Below, one piece after another: positions 5,498 to 35,063 of a DNA stretch of 39,435 nt. The position numbers were made by a program, and so were the translations under genes. Position 1 is the stretch's first letter; the number at the start of each line of letters is the position of its first letter. The notes beneath the pieces were generated by a model. It did no database searches. It was given only the letters and a program-made list of their open reading frames with translations, and was not told the DNA's origin. Source of the DNA: a virus; IMG/VR virus record IMGVR_UViG_3300044610_000341, positions 1 to 39,435 of that record; one strand, given 5' to 3'.

Positions 5498-5998
5498 ATG
5501 AGAGGTAAAAAAAACGCAATTTTCGCACCTGATCGGGGCGCACAATTGGAAAAGGCCGCAGCAGCCTGCGCAGTTTATTCGCAGGGTGTTTATACCATGA
5601 CGGCAGCTTGTAAACAATGCGGGATAGAATCCGGTTTATTTCATACTCTATTAAAAGAGTCTCCCGAATTACTCAAGATCTACAAAGAGGCTAAACAATT
5701 GAGCACAGCAATTTATAAGGCTGATTTGTTGCCAAAATTGCAAACAAGCCTGGAACGTCAGATAAACGGCTACTATGTCGAAGAATCTGAGATTGTCGAG
5801 CGGTTTAATAAAATCGGTGATCCTGCAGGAAAAACGATAACCACGAAACGAAAGTATGTAAACCCTTCGACTACTGCAGTCATTTTCGGGCTCAAAAATG
5901 TAGATCCGGCACAATGGAATTTGGAAGGGGGTACACAGGCAGAAACGCAAGAGGAGCAGGTCTTCCAAATCGGTGAACAGATTATTAAATTCCAATGA
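5498..5998 (+). CDS. terS: Putative terminase small subunit
   Basis: The 166-residue protein has a basic N-terminus and a helix-turn-helix-like segment around residues 25-55 (T-M-T-A-A-C-K-Q-C-G-I then L-L-K-E-S-P-E-L). The helix L-K-I-Y-K-E-A-K follows, as in small terminases of the phBC6A51 type, where 'eL.e.Y.rAr' follows the HTH. The C-terminus is acidic and Gln-rich. It would bind the packaging site and deliver DNA to the large subunit. It is the first gene of the rightward arm and lies 485 bp before the large terminase. The assignment rests on the HTH, size and context. Confidence 0.65.
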   Translation: MRGKKNAIFAPDRGAQLEKAAAACAVYSQGVYTMTAACKQCGIESGLFHTLLKESPELLKIYKEAKQLSTAIYKADLLPKLQTSLERQINGYYVEESEIVERFNKIGDPAGKTITTKRKYVNPSTTAVIFGLKNVDPAQWNLEGGTQAETQEEQVFQIGEQIIKFQ

Positions 5999-6020
5999 TA
6001 AGCATATTCCACTTGGGCAT

Positions 6021-6227
6021 ATGAGACCTGATTATATTGATAGGGTTGCTCGGTCGTTTATTCACCGTTATGGTGGGTTAATGGGGGCTGTGAATCATTG
6101 TGAGTGTTTGGTGTCGCACATGGAGTATCAGTTGTCTGTTCATGGGATTGATAGTATTTACTTTGGCAAGTATAAGTTTTACTATGAGGTTTACCGGAAC
6201 TTGTATGATCGTATATCGTTGAATTGA
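6021..6227 (+). CDS. Small hypothetical protein (68 aa)
   Basis: I chose the ATG at 6021 (M-R-P-D-Y-I-D-R). A GTG at 5973 would add 16 residues and overlap the small terminase. The product is helical and aromatic, with an H-C-E-C segment and a Y-F-G-K-Y-K-F-Y-Y run. It is coupled to the next gene by a TGATG overlap. It sits between the terminase subunits, but a packaging role is only positional. Codons here shift abruptly to G/T endings. Confidence 0.6.
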   Translation: MRPDYIDRVARSFIHRYGGLMGAVNHCECLVSHMEYQLSVHGIDSIYFGKYKFYYEVYRNLYDRISLN

Positions 6228-6496
6228 TGAGTGAGTTGCCTAAGTACATTCGTGAGGGTATTAACTTTACTGATTCCGAGATGGAGTTGTTGATTGGTGC
6301 TTTGTGTCGTGATTTAAGGTCAATTAAGGAGGTTGAGCGGTATATCAGTAGGCGTATTGTGGAGTATGAGTTTGAGATGTCTGTAGGGCGTTTAAATGAC
6401 CTTGACAGGTGTGCTATGTTGGAATGGATTGAGATAGAGAAGTATTTTATTCGATTTAAGAATAGTTTTAACAGAGAGTATTATGGTATTATTTAA
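6227..6496 (+). CDS. Small hypothetical protein (89 aa)
   Basis: The ATG at 6227 shares bases with the previous TGA. The protein is acidic and helical, with I-N-F-T-D-S-E-M-E-L-L near the start and an E-Y-E-F-E-M helix. It overlaps the large terminase start by 14 bp, so translation is probably coupled. There is no known motif. Like its neighbours it uses GAG, AAG and TTG heavily, unlike genes after 7760. Confidence 0.6.
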   Translation: MSELPKYIREGINFTDSEMELLIGALCRDLRSIKEVERYISRRIVEYEFEMSVGRLNDLDRCAMLEWIEIEKYFIRFKNSFNREYYGII

Positions 6497-7754
6497 GCCT
6501 TTTCCTAAGCAGCAAGAGTTTATTGAATCGGCTTTAAGTGGTCGTTATAGTTATTTGATGTATGGAGGAGCTGCCGGAGGTGGAAAGACGTATGTTAGTA
6601 TGGCTATTGCTATTATGCTTGCTAAGTTTTATCCTGGTAGTAGGTCATTTGTTGTTCGTGAGAGTGTACCTAAGCTGAAAAAGACTTCCATCAAAAGTTT
6701 TTTCAAACTTTGTCCGAAGTCTTTTATTAAGAAGTATCACCAAAATGACAAGTTGATAGTTTTTAAGAATGGGAGTGAGTTGCAGTTTATATCTGAGAAC
6801 TTTGCTAATGATAAGGATTTGACTCACTTTGATGGATTGGAGGGTAACTTCTTTTTTTTGGAGGAGGGTCAGGAGTTGCAGGAGAAGACGTTTAACAAGG
6901 CTATCCTTCGTTGTGGTAGGAATATTATTGATCCAATGCCACCTAAGTTGATATTTATCACATGTAATCCGAGTCAAAATTGGACTAAGCAGAGGTTTTA
7001 TATGCCACATAAGAATGGTGAGTTGCCGGATAGGTATTATTATTTGAGGGCGACAATGGAGGATAACAGTAGTTTGCCACAGGAGTATATTGAGAGTTTG
7101 AGTAATTTGGATGATCTGACCAGGGCTGTGTTTGTCAATGGTGATTGGGATGCTTTAGATGTGAATCGTCCTTTTGCATATGCGTTTAAGCGTGAGAAGA
7201 GTATTCGGGCGGGATTAAAGTTGAATAATGAGCATCCGATTATATTGTCATTTGACTTTAACGTGGATCCTATTACATGCCTTGCTTGTCAGAGTTACGG
7301 TGAGAGTGTGCGGGTGTTGAGGGAGTTTAGGTTGCGTAACTCGGATATATTTGCCTTGTGTAGTGAGATTAAGAAGTATTATCAGGGGAAGGAGTTTATT
7401 GTAACAGGTGATGCTTCCGGTGCTAATCGCAGTGCTATGACTAAGGGTGCAATGAATTACTACATGATTATTAAGGAGGAGCTTAATGTGCCAAGAAGTA
7501 ACTTTAAGGTTCCTACTTTCAATCCATCTATTAAGAACTCACGGGTTTTGTTAAATTCAATGCTTGAGAAGTATGGTGATTTTTACATTGATTCAAGTTG
7601 TGAGTTTTTGATTAATGACTTGTTGTATGTGGAGAGTGACTGGGCGGGTAATATTGATAAGACAAAGGATTCGAGTAAAACTCACTTGCTTGATTGTTTG
7701 AGGTATTATTTGTGGACGTTTCATAGTAACTTTGTGAAATACTTAAAGAAATAA
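6483..7754 (+). CDS. terL: Terminase large subunit
   Basis: This ATP-driven packaging motor and nuclease (423 aa) has all the main motifs. Walker A is G-G-A-A-G-G-G-K-T (28-36) and Walker B is F-F-F-L-E-E (123-128). A coupling-type T-C-N-P-S follows near 160. The RNase H-like nuclease has acidic residues in S-F-D-F-N-V-D-P (D258), T-G-D-A-S-G (D310) and L-L-D-C-L-R-Y (D404). Length is normal for phage large terminases. It acts at the portal during head filling. Codon use is G/T-rich at third positions, differing from downstream genes, which points to a separately acquired cassette. Confidence 0.95.
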   Translation: MVLFKPFPKQQEFIESALSGRYSYLMYGGAAGGGKTYVSMAIAIMLAKFYPGSRSFVVRESVPKLKKTSIKSFFKLCPKSFIKKYHQNDKLIVFKNGSELQFISENFANDKDLTHFDGLEGNFFFLEEGQELQEKTFNKAILRCGRNIIDPMPPKLIFITCNPSQNWTKQRFYMPHKNGELPDRYYYLRATMEDNSSLPQEYIESLSNLDDLTRAVFVNGDWDALDVNRPFAYAFKREKSIRAGLKLNNEHPIILSFDFNVDPITCLACQSYGESVRVLREFRLRNSDIFALCSEIKKYYQGKEFIVTGDASGANRSAMTKGAMNYYMIIKEELNVPRSNFKVPTFNPSIKNSRVLLNSMLEKYGDFYIDSSCEFLINDLLYVESDWAGNIDKTKDSSKTHLLDCLRYYLWTFHSNFVKYLKK

Positions 7755-7757
7755 AAT

Positions 7758-7880
7758 ATGCCAAAAAAACTTGAAAGATGTGTTACGGATGTAATGCGCA
7801 CTGGTAAGAGTAAGAGTGCTTCATATGCTATTTGTACAGCTTCTATCATGGGTAAAAAATCTAAAACAAAGAAGAAGTAA
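7758..7880 (+). CDS. Small conserved phage-type protein (40 aa)
   Basis: The ORF reads M-P-K-K-L-E-R-C-V-T-D-V-M, then K-S-K-S-A-S-Y-A-I-C-T-A-S, and ends in a Lys-rich tail. This K-L-E-x-C-V-x-D-V...S-A-Y-A-I-C-x-A-S pattern recurs in small proteins of many phages, from memory. The TAA shares its last A with the ATG of the next gene. Function unknown; it may be a virion or packaging accessory protein. Confidence 0.7.
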   Translation: MPKKLERCVTDVMRTGKSKSASYAICTASIMGKKSKTKKK

Positions 7881-8440
7881 TGTGGCCATTTAAGAGAAAA
7901 CAACAACAGCTAAAAGAGTCAAGTTTAACGGGGAGTAAGATTGTGATCAATCACATTTTTACTGATAGTCTTGGCCGGAAATGGTATGAGTATGAAAATG
8001 CCTTGTCTATGCCTGCAAGAAGGGCTATTGCTGCTGAGGTGGCAACCAGGTTGCAGGATATGAATCTAACGAGGGATGTTTTTGCCAAATTGTTAGAGAA
8101 GATGAAGCAATATGCCAATGATGGGAACATTGTTGCTTTGTTTGGTGTTCTCAATGACATTGAGTTCAGGATGAACTTTGTTGGCGAAGAGGCTACGTTA
8201 ATTGACCTTGCATCTTGTTATTTTGTTATTGATGGAGAGGATGAAAGTAGTTTTAGTGAGGTAGAAAGGAAGAAGAAGGCTGAGTTTATCAAATCAGATG
8301 TGGAGGCTTTTAATTTTTTTGTCCAAAGGGCGTTCTCACTCACAATCAAATATTCACAAACATCGCAAACCGATATACTAAATTATTTGATACAGAACGC
8401 CCAAGAACAAGAAAAAGTGTTTCGTCATTTGATCAAATAG
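7880..8440 (+). CDS. Tail assembly chaperone, short form (G-like)
   Basis: This 186-residue protein lies just upstream of the tape measure gene, the usual position for lambda G-type chaperones. It is helical, with an acidic central part and a basic N-terminus. Near its 3' end, 8314-8320 reads T TTT TTT in frame (after codon AAT), an ideal -1 slippery heptamer. The -1 frame is open from 8314 to 8667. Ribosomes that do not slip stop at 8440. The chaperone coats the tape measure protein during tail assembly. Confidence 0.7.
   Translation: MWPFKRKQQQLKESSLTGSKIVINHIFTDSLGRKWYEYENALSMPARRAIAAEVATRLQDMNLTRDVFAKLLEKMKQYANDGNIVALFGVLNDIEFRMNFVGEEATLIDLASCYFVIDGEDESSFSEVERKKKAEFIKSDVEAFNFFVQRAFSLTIKYSQTSQTDILNYLIQNAQEQEKVFRHLIK
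8314..8320 (+). promoter_or_regulatory. Programmed -1 ribosomal frameshift site (T TTT TTT)
   Basis: The heptamer X-XXY-YYZ is met in the zero frame, with codons TTT (8315-8317) and TTT (8318-8320). A one-base slip back continues at TGT (8320-8322) and stays open to the stop at 8665-8667. I did not identify a definite downstream stimulatory structure. Confidence 0.75.
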
Positions 8441-8667
8441 CCTTTGTCAAGTACATAGATGATATAAACTATTTGAATCAGATAGTTTGTGACAATAAAG
8501 TTTCCGAGATGAAGGCGTTGGAATCTTTAAGTGTTGATGAATATTACATGACATTAAATACTTATATTCGTATCGCAGAAGAACGAAATGAAAAGGCAGA
8601 GGCTATGGGTTCCGGTGATGGTATGAGTGGCAACAACAACAGAAAAGTTACCTCACTAAGAAAATAA
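8320..8667 (+). CDS. Tail assembly chaperone, frameshift extension (T-like part)
   Basis: This frame has no good own start: the only in-frame candidate is a TTG at 8473. It is open back to 8314 and overlaps the G-like gene. A -1 shift would join 147 residues of the first gene to 115 residues here, giving a 262-residue GT-like protein. The extension is basic at first, then acidic and helical (D-E-Y-Y-M-T-L-N-T-Y-I-R), and ends with a Gly/Ser/Asn-rich tail. The tape measure ATG follows 5 bp after the stop. Confidence 0.7.
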   Translation, partial: CPKGVLTHNQIFTNIANRYTKLFDTERPRTRKSVSSFDQIAFVKYIDDINYLNQIVCDNKVSEMKALESLSVDEYYMTLNTYIRIAEERNEKAEAMGSGDGMSGNNNRKVTSLRK

Positions 8668-8671
8668 ATAG

Positions 8672-11600
8672 ATGGCCATAAAAAATGTTGTTTTTGAAGT
8701 AAGCGCAAATACAAAAGACGCTGAAACAAAACTAAATGCCTTAATAGCTACTCTTGAGAAGTTACAACAGAGTGCAAAAATCCCTGTTCAATTAGATACT
8801 ACTAAGCTAAAGGCCGATATTCAAAAGATAAAGGTTGAGCTTAGTGCTGTACAGTCAGGTCAGAATGTTAAACTGCTTGGAGATATTACAGATGTAAATA
8901 TTAAGTTGCAGCAGATTATTGATCTTATTGCAAAGACAAACAGGCAGGCTAAAATCAACATTGATGGCGATACTACGGCCTTAAAGAATAAGATAGCTGA
9001 TTTAGAGGCTCAGATTAAAAAACTCAAAGAGCAAAAGATCACACCACAGGTTGACACAAACCCTGGTGTTCTTGGTGTACTTAAACTGAGAAACGCTTTT
9101 AACAATGCCGGTCTTGCACTTGGACTTACAGGTGCTGCGGCTGTTATTGCTGAGGTTGGTAAGGAATCTATTCGTGCTGCTGCTAATTATGAGCAGTTGA
9201 CCATTGCCTTTACTACGTTCTTAGGTTCTGCCGAGAAAGGAAAGGCCTTGATTCAGGAGTTGAGGCAGATTGCTGTTGAGACTCCATTTACTCCGGAGGA
9301 GATATTGCAGTCATCAAGAATATTGCTTGGATATGGCATCCAGGCAAAAGATGTTACAGATCAGATTCGACAACTTGGTGATATTGCTGCGGGAACAGGT
9401 GCGCCACTTGAAAGACTTTCAGTTGCCTTTGGTCAGATTACTGCGGCAGGTCGTTTGTATGGACAGGACTTGCTTCAGCTTATCAACGCAGGTTTTAACC
9501 CTCTTTTGGAGATCAGTCAAGTTACCGGAAAGTCTATCGGTCAGTTGAAAGAGGAAATGGCTGATGGTGCTATTAGTGTTGATATTGTAAGAGAGGCATT
9601 TAAGAGGGCAACAAGTGAGGGTGGACGATTCTTTGGTCTTACTCAAGCACTTGCTGATTCAACTACCGGACAGCTTGCAAGACTTGAAGAAAGTTGGCAA
9701 AACATCAAGATCACCATTGGTCAGGGATTGATTCCTGTTTTTTTGGCTGTTGTGAAATCTATTGAGGCTGTATTTAAAGGATTTCAGGCTTTACCTCAGC
9801 TTATAAGAGAAAATAGGGCTGCATTTTTACTTCTATCTACTGCTGTTATTTATTATACCACTGCAAAGTTCAGACAACAACAGGTAGATGCTCTTGCAAC
9901 AGCCAAGAAATATGCAGCTATTGTAGCTGCCAAGTTGGAAGCTGCTGCTTATGCTGTTGCCAATAAAGTTTTAGATTTTAGAGATTCTTTGAACTTAAAG
10001 AATGTAAAGTCTACTTCACTTTTAACAGTCGCTACTAATGGGGCTAAAACAGCTCAGGAAGGATTAAATCTTGCGATAAAAAATAATCCAATAGGATTTT
10101 TTATTACTCTTTTAACTACCGTTATTTCATATTTGGTTTTATTTAAAAATGAAGCCAATGAAGTAAAAGAGGATTTCATTGATCTTCAAGAGGCATTTGC
10201 AAATGTTAGAGAAGAGTCTGCGGCTAATACCGAAAAGGAACTTTCTAACTTAGATAGGCTTTTCAATGCACTTAAAAAGACAACAGAAGGAAGCAAGGAA
10301 AGACAAGCTGTTATTGATGAGATTAATTCCAAGTATGGAATTACTTTAAAGAACCTTGAAAACGAAAAGAAGTTTGTTGATCAAACGGCAGAGGCTTATG
10401 AAAAGTTGCGCCAACAAATAACTCAAACAGCACGAGTAAGAGCAATTGAAAATCAGTTGACTCAGCAGTTTGAACAACAGAGTAAGCAACAAACACAATT
10501 AGTTGATAATCTTGCTAAGTTTATTTTGGCGAGAAGTAAACAAGAGCAAATTCTTGGCAAACAATTTAGTTTTGAGGAATTAAAAAAGGCATTTATCAAT
10601 GAAGCTGAAGGAATTGGTCTTTCAACTGATATTTTAAACCAGGCTATTGATAGGGCAAATGAGTTAAATGGCAAAATTGAATTGCCAAGACAATATCTTG
10701 AGTTGAATAAGTATTGGCTTGCTGTTAAAGAAGATATTGAGGAGTCCAATAATAATCTATTAGATACAAGAAAAACCATCAATGCACTTGAGGGTGAATT
10801 AGAGGGAATTGATCTTTCTTTATTGTTTGACACACCAACTACCGGTGGCGATGGAGGTAATGCAGCAAAACAACAAGCTGATCTTTATTTAGACCTTGCA
10901 AATAGAATTAAAAAGAATAATGAAGATCTAAGGAAACAACAGATTCAGTTTATTGAGCCACTCAGTCTGCAAGGACAAATAAAAGCTATTGAAGATCTTG
11001 AAGCAATCCAAAAAGAAGCTATTGATAGAGAAATTGATAGAGAGATACAAGCCGCAAGAGAAAAAGGCATTTTGACTGGACTTATTGAGACTCAATTTGA
11101 AAAAATCAGAACCCAGGAAAAGGAAAAGGTTGAAATTGAGAATCAAAAGGACATCAATGCTAAACTGCTTGCAGAAAGAAGAAAATATCTTGAAAAAACC
11201 ATTGAACAGGCAAGGTCAAGAGAGAGTATTTTAACTGATATAAACGAAACAAGGCTTGAGGCTGATATTCTTTTCTTGAATGAGCAATTTGAAGTTCTGA
11301 CGGAAGAAAGAGAAAAATTGCAAGAGGCTTATGAAAAGTCAATCAATGATAAAGAAAGAGCATTAATCAAGAGAAGGCTTGCTGCTAATTTAGCATTAGT
11401 AAAAAAGAATCTACAAGAGGAATTAGATTTAAATATTGCAAACATCAAGAAAAAAGCGGAGCAAGAAGCAAATAATCCTCCACTTGTAGTTGTCGAACAA
11501 CAAGCCTTCCGAAAATCTGTATTCCTAAAGGCCGATCTTGAAATATTAAAAGCTCGAAAAGACTTTAATGAAAAAATTAAGAAGTTAGATGAAGAAGGAA

Positions 11601-12364
11601 CCGATGTCACCATTACTGAAAGCGAAAAAAGAACAGATCAGGTATTCGCTGACATACAAAAGATAACCAATGCGATATTTGATCTTACAAGAGCTATTAT
11701 TGATTCTCAATTAATACAAACTGAGGCTCAGATTAGTGCTCAGGAAGAAAGGATAGAAGCAGCTAAATCTATAGCCGAAAAGGGTAATGCCGACATATTA
11801 GAATTGGAGCAAAAACGATTAGATGATCTTGAAAGGCAAAGAGCAAAATATGTTCGTCAAGTACAAAACCTTGCTGTTATTGAGGTTGCTGCAAATAGCG
11901 CAATAGCCATTGCACAAGCGGCAGTTGCAGGAAAAGGTTATGCTTCAGCCGTTACAATAGCTGCAACACTTATTGCTATGGCAGCCGGATTTGCCCAAGC
12001 CAGAGCACAAGCTCAAAGTGCTGTTGCAGGATTTGAAAAAGGTGGTTATACCGGTGATGGAGGCAGAAAACAAGAAGCGGGCGTAGTCCACAAGGGTGAG
12101 TTCGTTATCAATGCTGAAAAAACCAAAAAATACAGACCTTTATTGGAAGCAATCCATCTTGGAAGAAATCCAAATCTTTTGAAAGACATAAATCAGAATT
12201 TGGTTGTCATAAACAACAAAAGCACAGATGAAAAACTTTCCAAAATTGAAAAGGCAATCAGAGAGCAAAGCGGTTTAAATTTGTCTATTGATGAAAGGGG
12301 AATACATGGAATAGTTTCTACCATTCAATTCAAAGAACAAAGACTTAGAAATCGACTGAAATGA
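8672..12364 (+). CDS. Tape measure protein
   Basis: At 1230 residues this is the longest protein. It sets tail length and is threaded inside the tail tube. The N-terminus is long coiled coil with V-S-A-N-T-K-D-A-E at the start. Residues from about 169 match the TP901-type domain (Y-E-Q-L-T-I-A-F-T-T-F-L-G-S, then P-F-T-P-E-E-I-L-Q-S-S-R). Hydrophobic segments occur around 370-400, near 470 and around 1066-1115. A further coiled coil spans about 560-1060. The C-terminus has G-G-Y-T-G-D-G-G and G-E-F-V-I-N-A, common at tape measure ends. At about 1.5 angstrom per residue the tail would be near 185 nm (rule of thumb). Its stop overlaps the next ATG (ATGA). Confidence 0.95.
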   Translation: MAIKNVVFEVSANTKDAETKLNALIATLEKLQQSAKIPVQLDTTKLKADIQKIKVELSAVQSGQNVKLLGDITDVNIKLQQIIDLIAKTNRQAKINIDGDTTALKNKIADLEAQIKKLKEQKITPQVDTNPGVLGVLKLRNAFNNAGLALGLTGAAAVIAEVGKESIRAAANYEQLTIAFTTFLGSAEKGKALIQELRQIAVETPFTPEEILQSSRILLGYGIQAKDVTDQIRQLGDIAAGTGAPLERLSVAFGQITAAGRLYGQDLLQLINAGFNPLLEISQVTGKSIGQLKEEMADGAISVDIVREAFKRATSEGGRFFGLTQALADSTTGQLARLEESWQNIKITIGQGLIPVFLAVVKSIEAVFKGFQALPQLIRENRAAFLLLSTAVIYYTTAKFRQQQVDALATAKKYAAIVAAKLEAAAYAVANKVLDFRDSLNLKNVKSTSLLTVATNGAKTAQEGLNLAIKNNPIGFFITLLTTVISYLVLFKNEANEVKEDFIDLQEAFANVREESAANTEKELSNLDRLFNALKKTTEGSKERQAVIDEINSKYGITLKNLENEKKFVDQTAEAYEKLRQQITQTARVRAIENQLTQQFEQQSKQQTQLVDNLAKFILARSKQEQILGKQFSFEELKKAFINEAEGIGLSTDILNQAIDRANELNGKIELPRQYLELNKYWLAVKEDIEESNNNLLDTRKTINALEGELEGIDLSLLFDTPTTGGDGGNAAKQQADLYLDLANRIKKNNEDLRKQQIQFIEPLSLQGQIKAIEDLEAIQKEAIDREIDREIQAAREKGILTGLIETQFEKIRTQEKEKVEIENQKDINAKLLAERRKYLEKTIEQARSRESILTDINETRLEADILFLNEQFEVLTEEREKLQEAYEKSINDKERALIKRRLAANLALVKKNLQEELDLNIANIKKKAEQEANNPPLVVVEQQAFRKSVFLKADLEILKARKDFNEKIKKLDEEGTDVTITESEKRTDQVFADIQKITNAIFDLTRAIIDSQLIQTEAQISAQEERIEAAKSIAEKGNADILELEQKRLDDLERQRAKYVRQVQNLAVIEVAANSAIAIAQAAVAGKGYASAVTIAATLIAMAAGFAQARAQAQSAVAGFEKGGYTGDGGRKQEAGVVHKGEFVINAEKTKKYRPLLEAIHLGRNPNLLKDINQNLVVINNKSTDEKLSKIEKAIREQSGLNLSIDERGIHGIVSTIQFKEQRLRNRLK

Positions 12365-21335: not shown

Positions 21336-22148
21336 ATGAAAAATATTGAAGCATTCTTAAAGAAGATCGGTGTACCATCTTCAACCATTTCAAAACTTTC
21401 GTCAGAAGATGAAGTTGATGTTGATTCCTTTGCGACATCTTTTAAATCATCAATTACAGATGTGATTGCTAATGATCCTAATTTCATTCAGCCTATAAAG
21501 GATGAAATTCGAGGCACTGAGCTTTCAAAGATTGAGCATAAGATTAAAAAGACTTTCAATCTGAATCCTGATGAAATCAAGGACAAAAAGTTTGATGAAA
21601 TTATTTCCATTGCCTTTGAGAAAAGCAAGAATATTGGAAGTAGCGGTTCAGATGAATTGCAAAACAAACTTATTGAACTCACAAAGGAGAATAAACGCCT
21701 TTTGGAAGAAGTTATACCTCAGAAAGAAACAGAGGCCGTAAACACAATAAAATCATTCAAGAAGGCCAATGCTCTTAGAGCTACCTTGTCAAAGAAGGAT
21801 TTGATTGTAAAGGCAGATGCTATTTTACCTGCTGTGGAATCTTATCTTAATTCCCAATTTGAATATGATGTGATGGATAATGGAGATATTGATGTTAAAA
21901 CCAAAAGTGGCTTAAAACCATTAAATAATGATGGAACAAAAGCATTATCTTTTGATGAGTTAATAGATTCTCACTTATCTTCGCTGCAAGTTATTAAGCA
22001 GTCTAACGGAGGACAAACTCCTGCTCCGGCACAGACTCCTAAACCAACACAATCGGTAGATGCTCCAAAGTTCAATTTGCCGCATCTACAAAAGGCGCAA
22101 GCTAATGCCGAGAAGTTGTCAGCAATGAAAACTTTCGGTAAAGAATAA
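21336..22148 (+). CDS. Putative capsid scaffolding protein
   Basis: The 270-residue highly charged, helical protein has a probable coiled coil around residues 108-130 (L-I-E-L-T-K-E-N-K-R-L-L-E-E). A Pro/Gln-rich linker near 225-240 precedes a C-terminal helix with basic residues. It lies immediately before the major capsid gene, the usual scaffold position. It would direct procapsid assembly and then leave. There is no visible protease motif. Assignment is by composition and position. Confidence 0.65.
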   Translation: MKNIEAFLKKIGVPSSTISKLSSEDEVDVDSFATSFKSSITDVIANDPNFIQPIKDEIRGTELSKIEHKIKKTFNLNPDEIKDKKFDEIISIAFEKSKNIGSSGSDELQNKLIELTKENKRLLEEVIPQKETEAVNTIKSFKKANALRATLSKKDLIVKADAILPAVESYLNSQFEYDVMDNGDIDVKTKSGLKPLNNDGTKALSFDELIDSHLSSLQVIKQSNGGQTPAPAQTPKPTQSVDAPKFNLPHLQKAQANAEKLSAMKTFGKE

Positions 22149-22200: not shown

Positions 22201-22254
22201 CGGGGCTAAGATTCAGCCCATTCAATTGAATTATATTCTCTTGGATGGGCTTTT
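22201..22254 (+). terminator. Two alternative hairpins, one terminator-like, before the capsid gene
   Basis: Stem 1 pairs GGGCT (22203-22207) with AGCCC (22215-22219). Stem 2 pairs AGCCCATTC (22215-22223) with GGATGGGCT (22243-22251) and is followed by TTTTC. They share AGCCC and exclude each other. This may be an attenuator, an mRNA stabiliser or a processing site. The 151-bp gap holds no gene. Confidence 0.55.
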
Positions 22255-22299
22255 CATTTACCCCAAAAAAACAAATTCTAATTTTTAAAAAACAAAAAA

Positions 22300-23322
22300 A
22301 TGGCTTTTACAGAAGGTTTATGTCAAAACCTGCAAGTCAACCTTAATGATGTTGCAGGAAACAATGCTCCGCTTTTGAAGCGTGATCGCGTTGGTTACTT
22401 GGATGCAATCGTTTCTCAGGAAAATACAGCCGGAATCGAATTGTTGCCAATCCCAACAAATGGTAAGTATCGTAAAGTACAGGTGAACTATGCAAATCGC
22501 GGACTTGAGTCTGAGGTTTCATTGACTTGTGCTAACAATTGTACTTCTACAAACGAGCACACACCGCTTGAAACTATTGTAGACGTAGACAATTGTCTTG
22601 AAACCTCACTTCTTTTCAATGAAGATGAGATGCGTAAATTGTGTGAGGCTGATTCTACTTGGGTTGCTCAAACAATCATGGGTCAGATGAACGCTTTGAG
22701 TGTTGCTTTGGACAAGCAAATGTTGTCACTTCAATCAACTAACTTCGGTAATTTCGCTGATGGTACTACACTGAAGAGTGTAAAGTTGTTTGATGATACA
22801 ACCAATGCTTCTCGTGCTATTGCTACTGCTCAGATCCGTCACGAATATGATATGGTTGGATCAAGTGGTGCTCCAATGATGATTGGTGGTGGTAACTTGG
22901 ACTTGTTTGCTAAAGTGAATCAAATCGCTTGCTGCAATTCAACTACCGGAACTGATCTTGCTCGTTGGACTGACTACATGTACTTCCACGATCGTTTCGC
23001 TGAGTCTGTACTTGGTGCTAACAACTTTGCTGTTTTGGCTCCTGGTGCTGCACAACTTATCACTTGGAATCGTTACGCAGGTGATTACGCTAAGCGTAAT
23101 GATGTGTTTGAACATGGTACAATCACAGATCCATTCACAGGTATCACTTATGACCTCAAGATGCACTATGATGATTGTGCTGATCGTTGGGTTATCAAAC
23201 TTCAATTGCACTGGACAATGTTCTTTATCCCTTCAAATGCTTTCGCAACAGGAGATACAAACGAAGGTGTGAATTACACGTTCAACTTTGAAGATTGCTC
23301 AACAATTGTAGGTTGCGACTAA
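22300..23322 (+). CDS. Major capsid protein
   Basis: The 340-residue protein follows the scaffold and has a strong codon bias towards CGT, GGT and ATC, typical of very highly expressed genes. This supports its role as the main shell protein. Motif evidence for the HK97 fold is limited, but size and order fit. It has 10 Cys, including C-A-N-N-C (77-81), a C-C pair and an end of D-C-S-T-I-V-G-C-D, unusual for a capsid. The leader before it is A-rich and has the paired hairpins described separately. Confidence 0.8.
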   Translation: MAFTEGLCQNLQVNLNDVAGNNAPLLKRDRVGYLDAIVSQENTAGIELLPIPTNGKYRKVQVNYANRGLESEVSLTCANNCTSTNEHTPLETIVDVDNCLETSLLFNEDEMRKLCEADSTWVAQTIMGQMNALSVALDKQMLSLQSTNFGNFADGTTLKSVKLFDDTTNASRAIATAQIRHEYDMVGSSGAPMMIGGGNLDLFAKVNQIACCNSTTGTDLARWTDYMYFHDRFAESVLGANNFAVLAPGAAQLITWNRYAGDYAKRNDVFEHGTITDPFTGITYDLKMHYDDCADRWVIKLQLHWTMFFIPSNAFATGDTNEGVNYTFNFEDCSTIVGCD

Positions 23323-34982: not shown

Positions 34983-34997
34983 GTTGTTTGATTTAGA

Positions 34998-35063
34998 AAG
35001 GTGTACGGGATTTGAACCCGTATCAGCTACATCGAGCCGTTTTTCCATTTAAACTAACACCCC
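34998..35063 (-). tRNA. tRNA-like element with shortened anticodon arm
   Basis: The minus strand shows an acceptor stem (GGGGTGT with ACACCTT, two G-T pairs), D arm (GTTT/AAAC with a loop holding GG), and a perfect T arm (ACGGG, TTCAAAT loop, CCCGT). Only 17 nt lie between the D and T arms, about 6 fewer than usual. The best anticodon stem is 3-4 bp with a 6-nt loop CGATGT. The anticodon cannot be assigned. No CCA is encoded. It may be a decayed tRNA, a decoy, or a very unusual tRNA. Confidence 0.6.

Follow-up and report, generated by a model that had tools for sequence, protein, structure and literature searches.

A conserved T-run slippery site with a downstream RNA stem suggests -1 programmed frameshifting of a tail chaperone-like gene pair in an uncultured phage family

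The G and GT tail assembly chaperones of phage lambda are encoded by a short open reading frame (ORF) and an overlapping -1 extension right before the tape measure gene, an arrangement that is common to many long-tailed phages and is expected to yield many copies of the short product and few of the long one (PMC5009743). According to the lambda model, the tape measure protein carries many copies of gpG and few of gpGT, and tube subunits are recruited by the T part; the corresponding ORFs show low similarity between phages (PMC5009743). The -1 signals of E. coli dnaX and of retroviruses combine a heptamer of the form X_XXY_YYZ, a spacer between heptamer and structure that is usually 5–9 nt long, and a stem that acts as the stimulator; in E. 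coli, U_UUU_UUU is less shift-prone than A_AAA_AAG (PMC5009743). A third kind of system is transcriptional slippage at runs of nine A or T, as in Thermus dnaX and type III secretion genes.

Here we analyze a locus with the lambda layout in the window, i.e., the whole stretch of 39,435 nucleotides of viral DNA that was studied. Its G-like ORF occupies positions 7880–8440 on the plus strand, has its stop codon at 8438–8440, and encodes a 0-frame product of 186 aa whose relatives are 38–72% identical. It is overlapped by a T-like -1 frame (8314–8667, plus strand), which is closed by a TAA at 8311–8313, open from 8314, and terminated by a TAA at 8665–8667. The slippery heptamer T TTT TTT lies at 8314–8320 on the plus strand, where the 0-frame codons read aaT TTT TTT gtc, and it is therefore an X_XXY_YYZ heptamer in phase. 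A slip at this site would join G codons 1–147 to 115 residues of the new frame (from 8320) in a G-T fusion of 262 aa, which ends 4 bases upstream of the ATG of the tape measure protein gene (8672–12364, plus strand, 1230 aa; Pfam TMP_3 PF20155 at 3.8e-25, phrog_9959 at 2.1e-68). In all these respects, namely the in-frame heptamer, the extent of the open -1 frame, and the size of the fusion and its place immediately before the tape measure gene, the original prediction agrees with our results. It had also anticipated that automatic annotation would call a separate gene of 64 residues, and the mechanical ORF does begin at the TTG at 8473, which is the earliest start candidate in the -1 frame and is followed by an ATG at 8509. 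The resulting 64-aa ORF (8473–8667, plus strand) is probably just the end of the fusion, as conservation extends upstream of 8473.

The combination of a heptamer with a long open -1 frame is not due to chance, because among 31 X_XXY_YYZ heptamers that lie in phase in the plus-strand genes of the window and have an A/T slip codon, only the one at 8314–8320 opens into a long -1 frame (117 codons; the runner-up has 24), and because the -1 frame stays open in just 1.7% of recodings of the overlap that are synonymous in the 0 frame. The same synonymous recoding in five relatives left the -1 frame open in 0–0.18% of draws. The locus is unlike lambda G/GT in that its slippery site consists of Ts only, its overlap is long (about 112–196 nt across the family), a conserved stem-loop is present at 7-nt spacing, and the gene just ahead of the pair encodes the terminase large subunit and is not a recognised tail tube gene. 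The chaperone pair and the tape measure gene directly follow the terminase genes (window 5498–12364); downstream of 12364 most of the tested genes are without a PHROGs match, so that no tail tube or capsid gene could be named.

Relatives were collected by scanning viral contigs with the -1 protein (tblastn) and with the terminase, which after removal of duplicates gave 84 distinct sequences, including the window, that are readable across the slip site. All 84 carry TTTTTTT in the matching phase with TTTTTT as the slip codons (64 of 64 in a first pass); conservation of the heptamer in relatives had been proposed as a check, and no relative lacking the slippery site was found. The three synonymous positions of the heptamer are T in every sequence. 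At the slip codons TTC was seen 0 times in 168, compared to 51% of the other Phe codons in the same genes. Likewise, the codon before the two Phe codons always ends in T, though it encodes D, N, S, A, G or V, and elsewhere in the same genes T and C are about equally frequent as the third base of such codons. Because synonymous positions are fixed at the site while TTC is common elsewhere, the slip site, judged by these comparisons, is conserved for its own sake beyond what the protein needs.

The overlap is likewise constrained in two frames at once. Across 34 compared codons in 60 sequences neither frame contains a stop, and both translations have a mean identity of 55%. Upstream of the slip site the entropy maximum falls on the third position of the 0 frame and past the overlap on the third position of the -1 frame, and within the overlap entropy is reduced at all codon positions.

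Downstream of the heptamer we found a stem-loop (plus strand), an addition to the earlier reading, which had overlooked a stimulator. After a spacer of 7 nt (GTCCAAA, 8321–8327) begins an outer stem of 9 bp, in which GGGCGTTCT (8328–8336) pairs with AGAACGCCC (8394–8402), as indicated by both folding and covariation; 84% of the alignment cells of this stem are paired and 4 of its 9 pairs show two-sided changes. Inside its loop, an inner stem of 8 bp in the window pairs ATCAAATA (8345–8352) with TATTTGAT (8384–8391) and is less conserved, with 66% of cells paired. The fold energy of the stem region in the window is -21.4 kcal/mol (z -5.15), and a second run, in which the shuffle numbers differed from those of the sample, gave z -6.7, which is below the minimum (-5.5) among 201 windows sampled from the same genome. 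Covariation supports the outer stem with 23 two-sided cells compared to 7.8 in shuffles of 54 distinct rows, the significance of which is overstated by the shuffles since the rows are mutually related, and with a score of 0.197 compared to 0.03–0.09 for slid versions of the stem in the same 54 rows (slid maximum 0.089). The outer stem is missing from the RNAalifold prediction for the full set of 54 rows because some lineages are without it, and an Rfam search returned no recoding element at the slip site. The spacing of 7 nt falls within the 5–9 nt range noted above, and the heptamer, spacer and stem together resemble the dnaX and retroviral signals; the differences are a heptamer made purely of U and a long-range stem with a 57-nt loop in a region that is coding in both frames. 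The stem-loop at this spacing strengthens the ribosomal reading of the locus, and it is not universal among relatives with nine Ts.

The length of the T run is bimodal among the 84 sequences, the window included: 7 in 43, 9–10 in 41, and 8 in none. In the 0 frame the two Phe codons are followed by V, I, L or F, which would explain the absence of runs of eight. All 43 T7 sequences keep the outer stem (7–8 of 8 pairs), compared to 6 of the 41 T9–T10 sequences, and the mean fold z is -3.9 for T7, -3.3 for T9 with the stem, and -1.5 for T9 without it. Some of the T9 sequences without the outer stem carry another local hairpin (e.g., relatives L242 and L247) and some carry none (L189, L194, L196 and L182). 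On a tree built from columns outside the overlap core the run length changes five times and the stem eight times, and the independent pairs, most of which behave as expected, are not numerous enough for significance; a link between run length and stem loss, resting on about five changes on the tree, is suggestive only. With more Ts in the run the stem may be less needed, or slippage by the polymerase may come into play. As a side observation, the 36745-base contig IMGVR_UViG_3300020017_000024 (L187, L189) encodes the T domain at two separate places, possibly as a result of a duplicated chaperone gene or of an assembly that joins two phages.

Three other explanations of the locus have to be weighed. 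Homopolymer runs are prone to error, and a sequencing or assembly error could in principle have split one real gene; no tool result indicates such an error here. An identical phase in 84 distinct sequences from many metagenomes and a 0 frame that is constrained past the slip site refute this explanation, which we give a negligible probability. It is also very improbable that the -1 product is a separate gene with its own start at TTG 8473 or ATG 8509. The mechanical ORF at the TTG and the ATG that is common in relatives at +195 from the slip site would fit such a start, but all tblastn matches of relatives to the -1 protein begin at residue 1, and conservation of the -1 frame sets in at the slip codon, 53 codons ahead of the TTG. 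A separate start at 8473 is therefore unnecessary, and we reject an independent TTG start. In addition, the TTG is missing in many relatives and the ATG encodes a conserved Met within a conserved stretch. Conservation well before the TTG supports the frameshift of the original prediction over such a start.

The remaining alternative is transcriptional slippage, in which RNA polymerase would add a U to the transcript or skip one while copying the run of Ts, and the fusion would result from the changed mRNA by standard translation. The site is a homopolymer run, about half of the relatives have 9–10 Ts at the slip spot, which is the length of documented bacterial slippage (PMC5009743), and it is in these lineages that the outer stem is often absent. 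The window, in contrast to the Thermus dnaX type of slippage, has a run of only 7 Ts together with a stem, and the phase of the heptamer is fixed in all relatives. The fixed phase and the three fixed synonymous positions are stricter than polymerase slippage alone demands, and the T7 sequences without exception keep the stem at the spacing of a frameshift signal, yet stems in nascent RNA can affect the polymerase too. On balance we consider transcriptional slippage an unlikely source of the fusion, if a somewhat better candidate than an independent start.

The original prediction had described the fusion as GT-type, as in lambda. This holds for the layout, with short and -1-extended products encoded in an overlap that ends just before the TMP_3 tape measure gene. 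By sequence there is no match to a named chaperone: Pfam and PHROGs gave no family at E ≤ 0.001 for the two proteins of the window, which in contrast to lambda G/GT have no detectable similarity to named chaperone families, and the proteins of relatives gave weak PHROGs matches only, none of them named tail assembly chaperone. The AlphaFold2 model of G, built with 51 sequences, has moderate confidence (pLDDT 70.6), and fold searches with it returned no match at E ≤ 0.001, with all Z under 5. The HK97 tail assembly chaperone 2ob9 ranks near the head of the list of matches to this model at Z 3.6 (rmsd 4.2, 93 of 107 residues), tied with unrelated helical chains, and at a non-significant E of 6.2 in Foldseek; several similarly weak viral matches in BFVD are annotated as tail assembly chaperones. 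The model of the T domain (pLDDT 74, pTM 0.30) consists of three helices without firm packing. A chaperone role is thus suggested mainly by the architecture, together with the weak match to the HK97 chaperone fold, and not by sequence homology. Two cultured Bacteroides phages, C3_41T2LP and BS-TP2, have an ORF that precedes the tape measure gene and is overlapped by a -1 ORF (L251:2304–3076, L249:2827–3400), and the records of these phages show separate or missing genes with no fusion annotated. We rejected the idea that these ORFs, which occupy the chaperone position, are homologous to G, as there was no profile match.

Searches for relatives of G or T found none in the isolate-phage collection and none in bacterial genomes (as prophages). 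A Bacteroidota host is likely, because the phages whose proteins resemble the tape measure protein include those of Riemerella and Bacteroides. Two further features of the window were recorded. A strong stem, AGCCCATTCAA...TTGGATGGGCT followed by TTTTCATTT, at 22205–22270 is terminator-like, sits between a gene ending at 22148 and a gene starting at 22300, and falls within the 90-nt window that had the lowest energy among 401 sampled from 5498 to 29500. On the minus strand, 34997–35063 is called a tRNA by Rfam (43.9 bits) and not by ARAGORN, and is possibly a degenerate tRNA or the remnant of an attachment site.

Taken as a whole, we consider it very likely that -1 programmed ribosomal frameshifting yields gpG/gpGT-like tail assembly chaperones at this locus. 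The site, its phase, the overlap, the constraint in two frames, the conservation and the stem are direct observations. Ribosomes translating the G-like gene would reach the base of the strong stem-loop (8328–8402) at the mRNA entry, at which point UUU UUU would sit in the P and A sites; a minority would slip back by one base on U UUU UUU and continue in the -1 frame to 8665, so that the 262-aa G-T fusion would be made alongside the 186-aa product. We infer both the slipping agent (the ribosome rather than RNA polymerase) and the efficiency of the slip. By analogy with lambda gpG and gpGT, the tape measure protein would be covered by many short and few long chaperones, and tail tube subunits would be recruited by the T part.

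The trick itself is well known in phages, and very probably it is found here in a new virus family. An uncultured phage family thereby gains a defined recoding signal, and its annotation is corrected where automatic calling would give a gene of 64 aa that is false. Beyond expectation there is only the T7/T9 split, an unusual division among the relatives between seven Ts with a stem and nine Ts that are often stemless. We tentatively raise the possibility, which we hold to be doubtful, that one family makes one G/GT fusion with two interchangeable signals, T7 with a needed stem (ribosomal) and T9–T10 free of the stem (polymerase or structure-free slipping), with several evolutionary switches between them. 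The family is in any case a natural series, T7 plus stem and T9 without stem, on one conserved pair of products, which lets two trade-offs be measured, one of run length against RNA structure and one of slippage by the ribosome against slippage by the polymerase.
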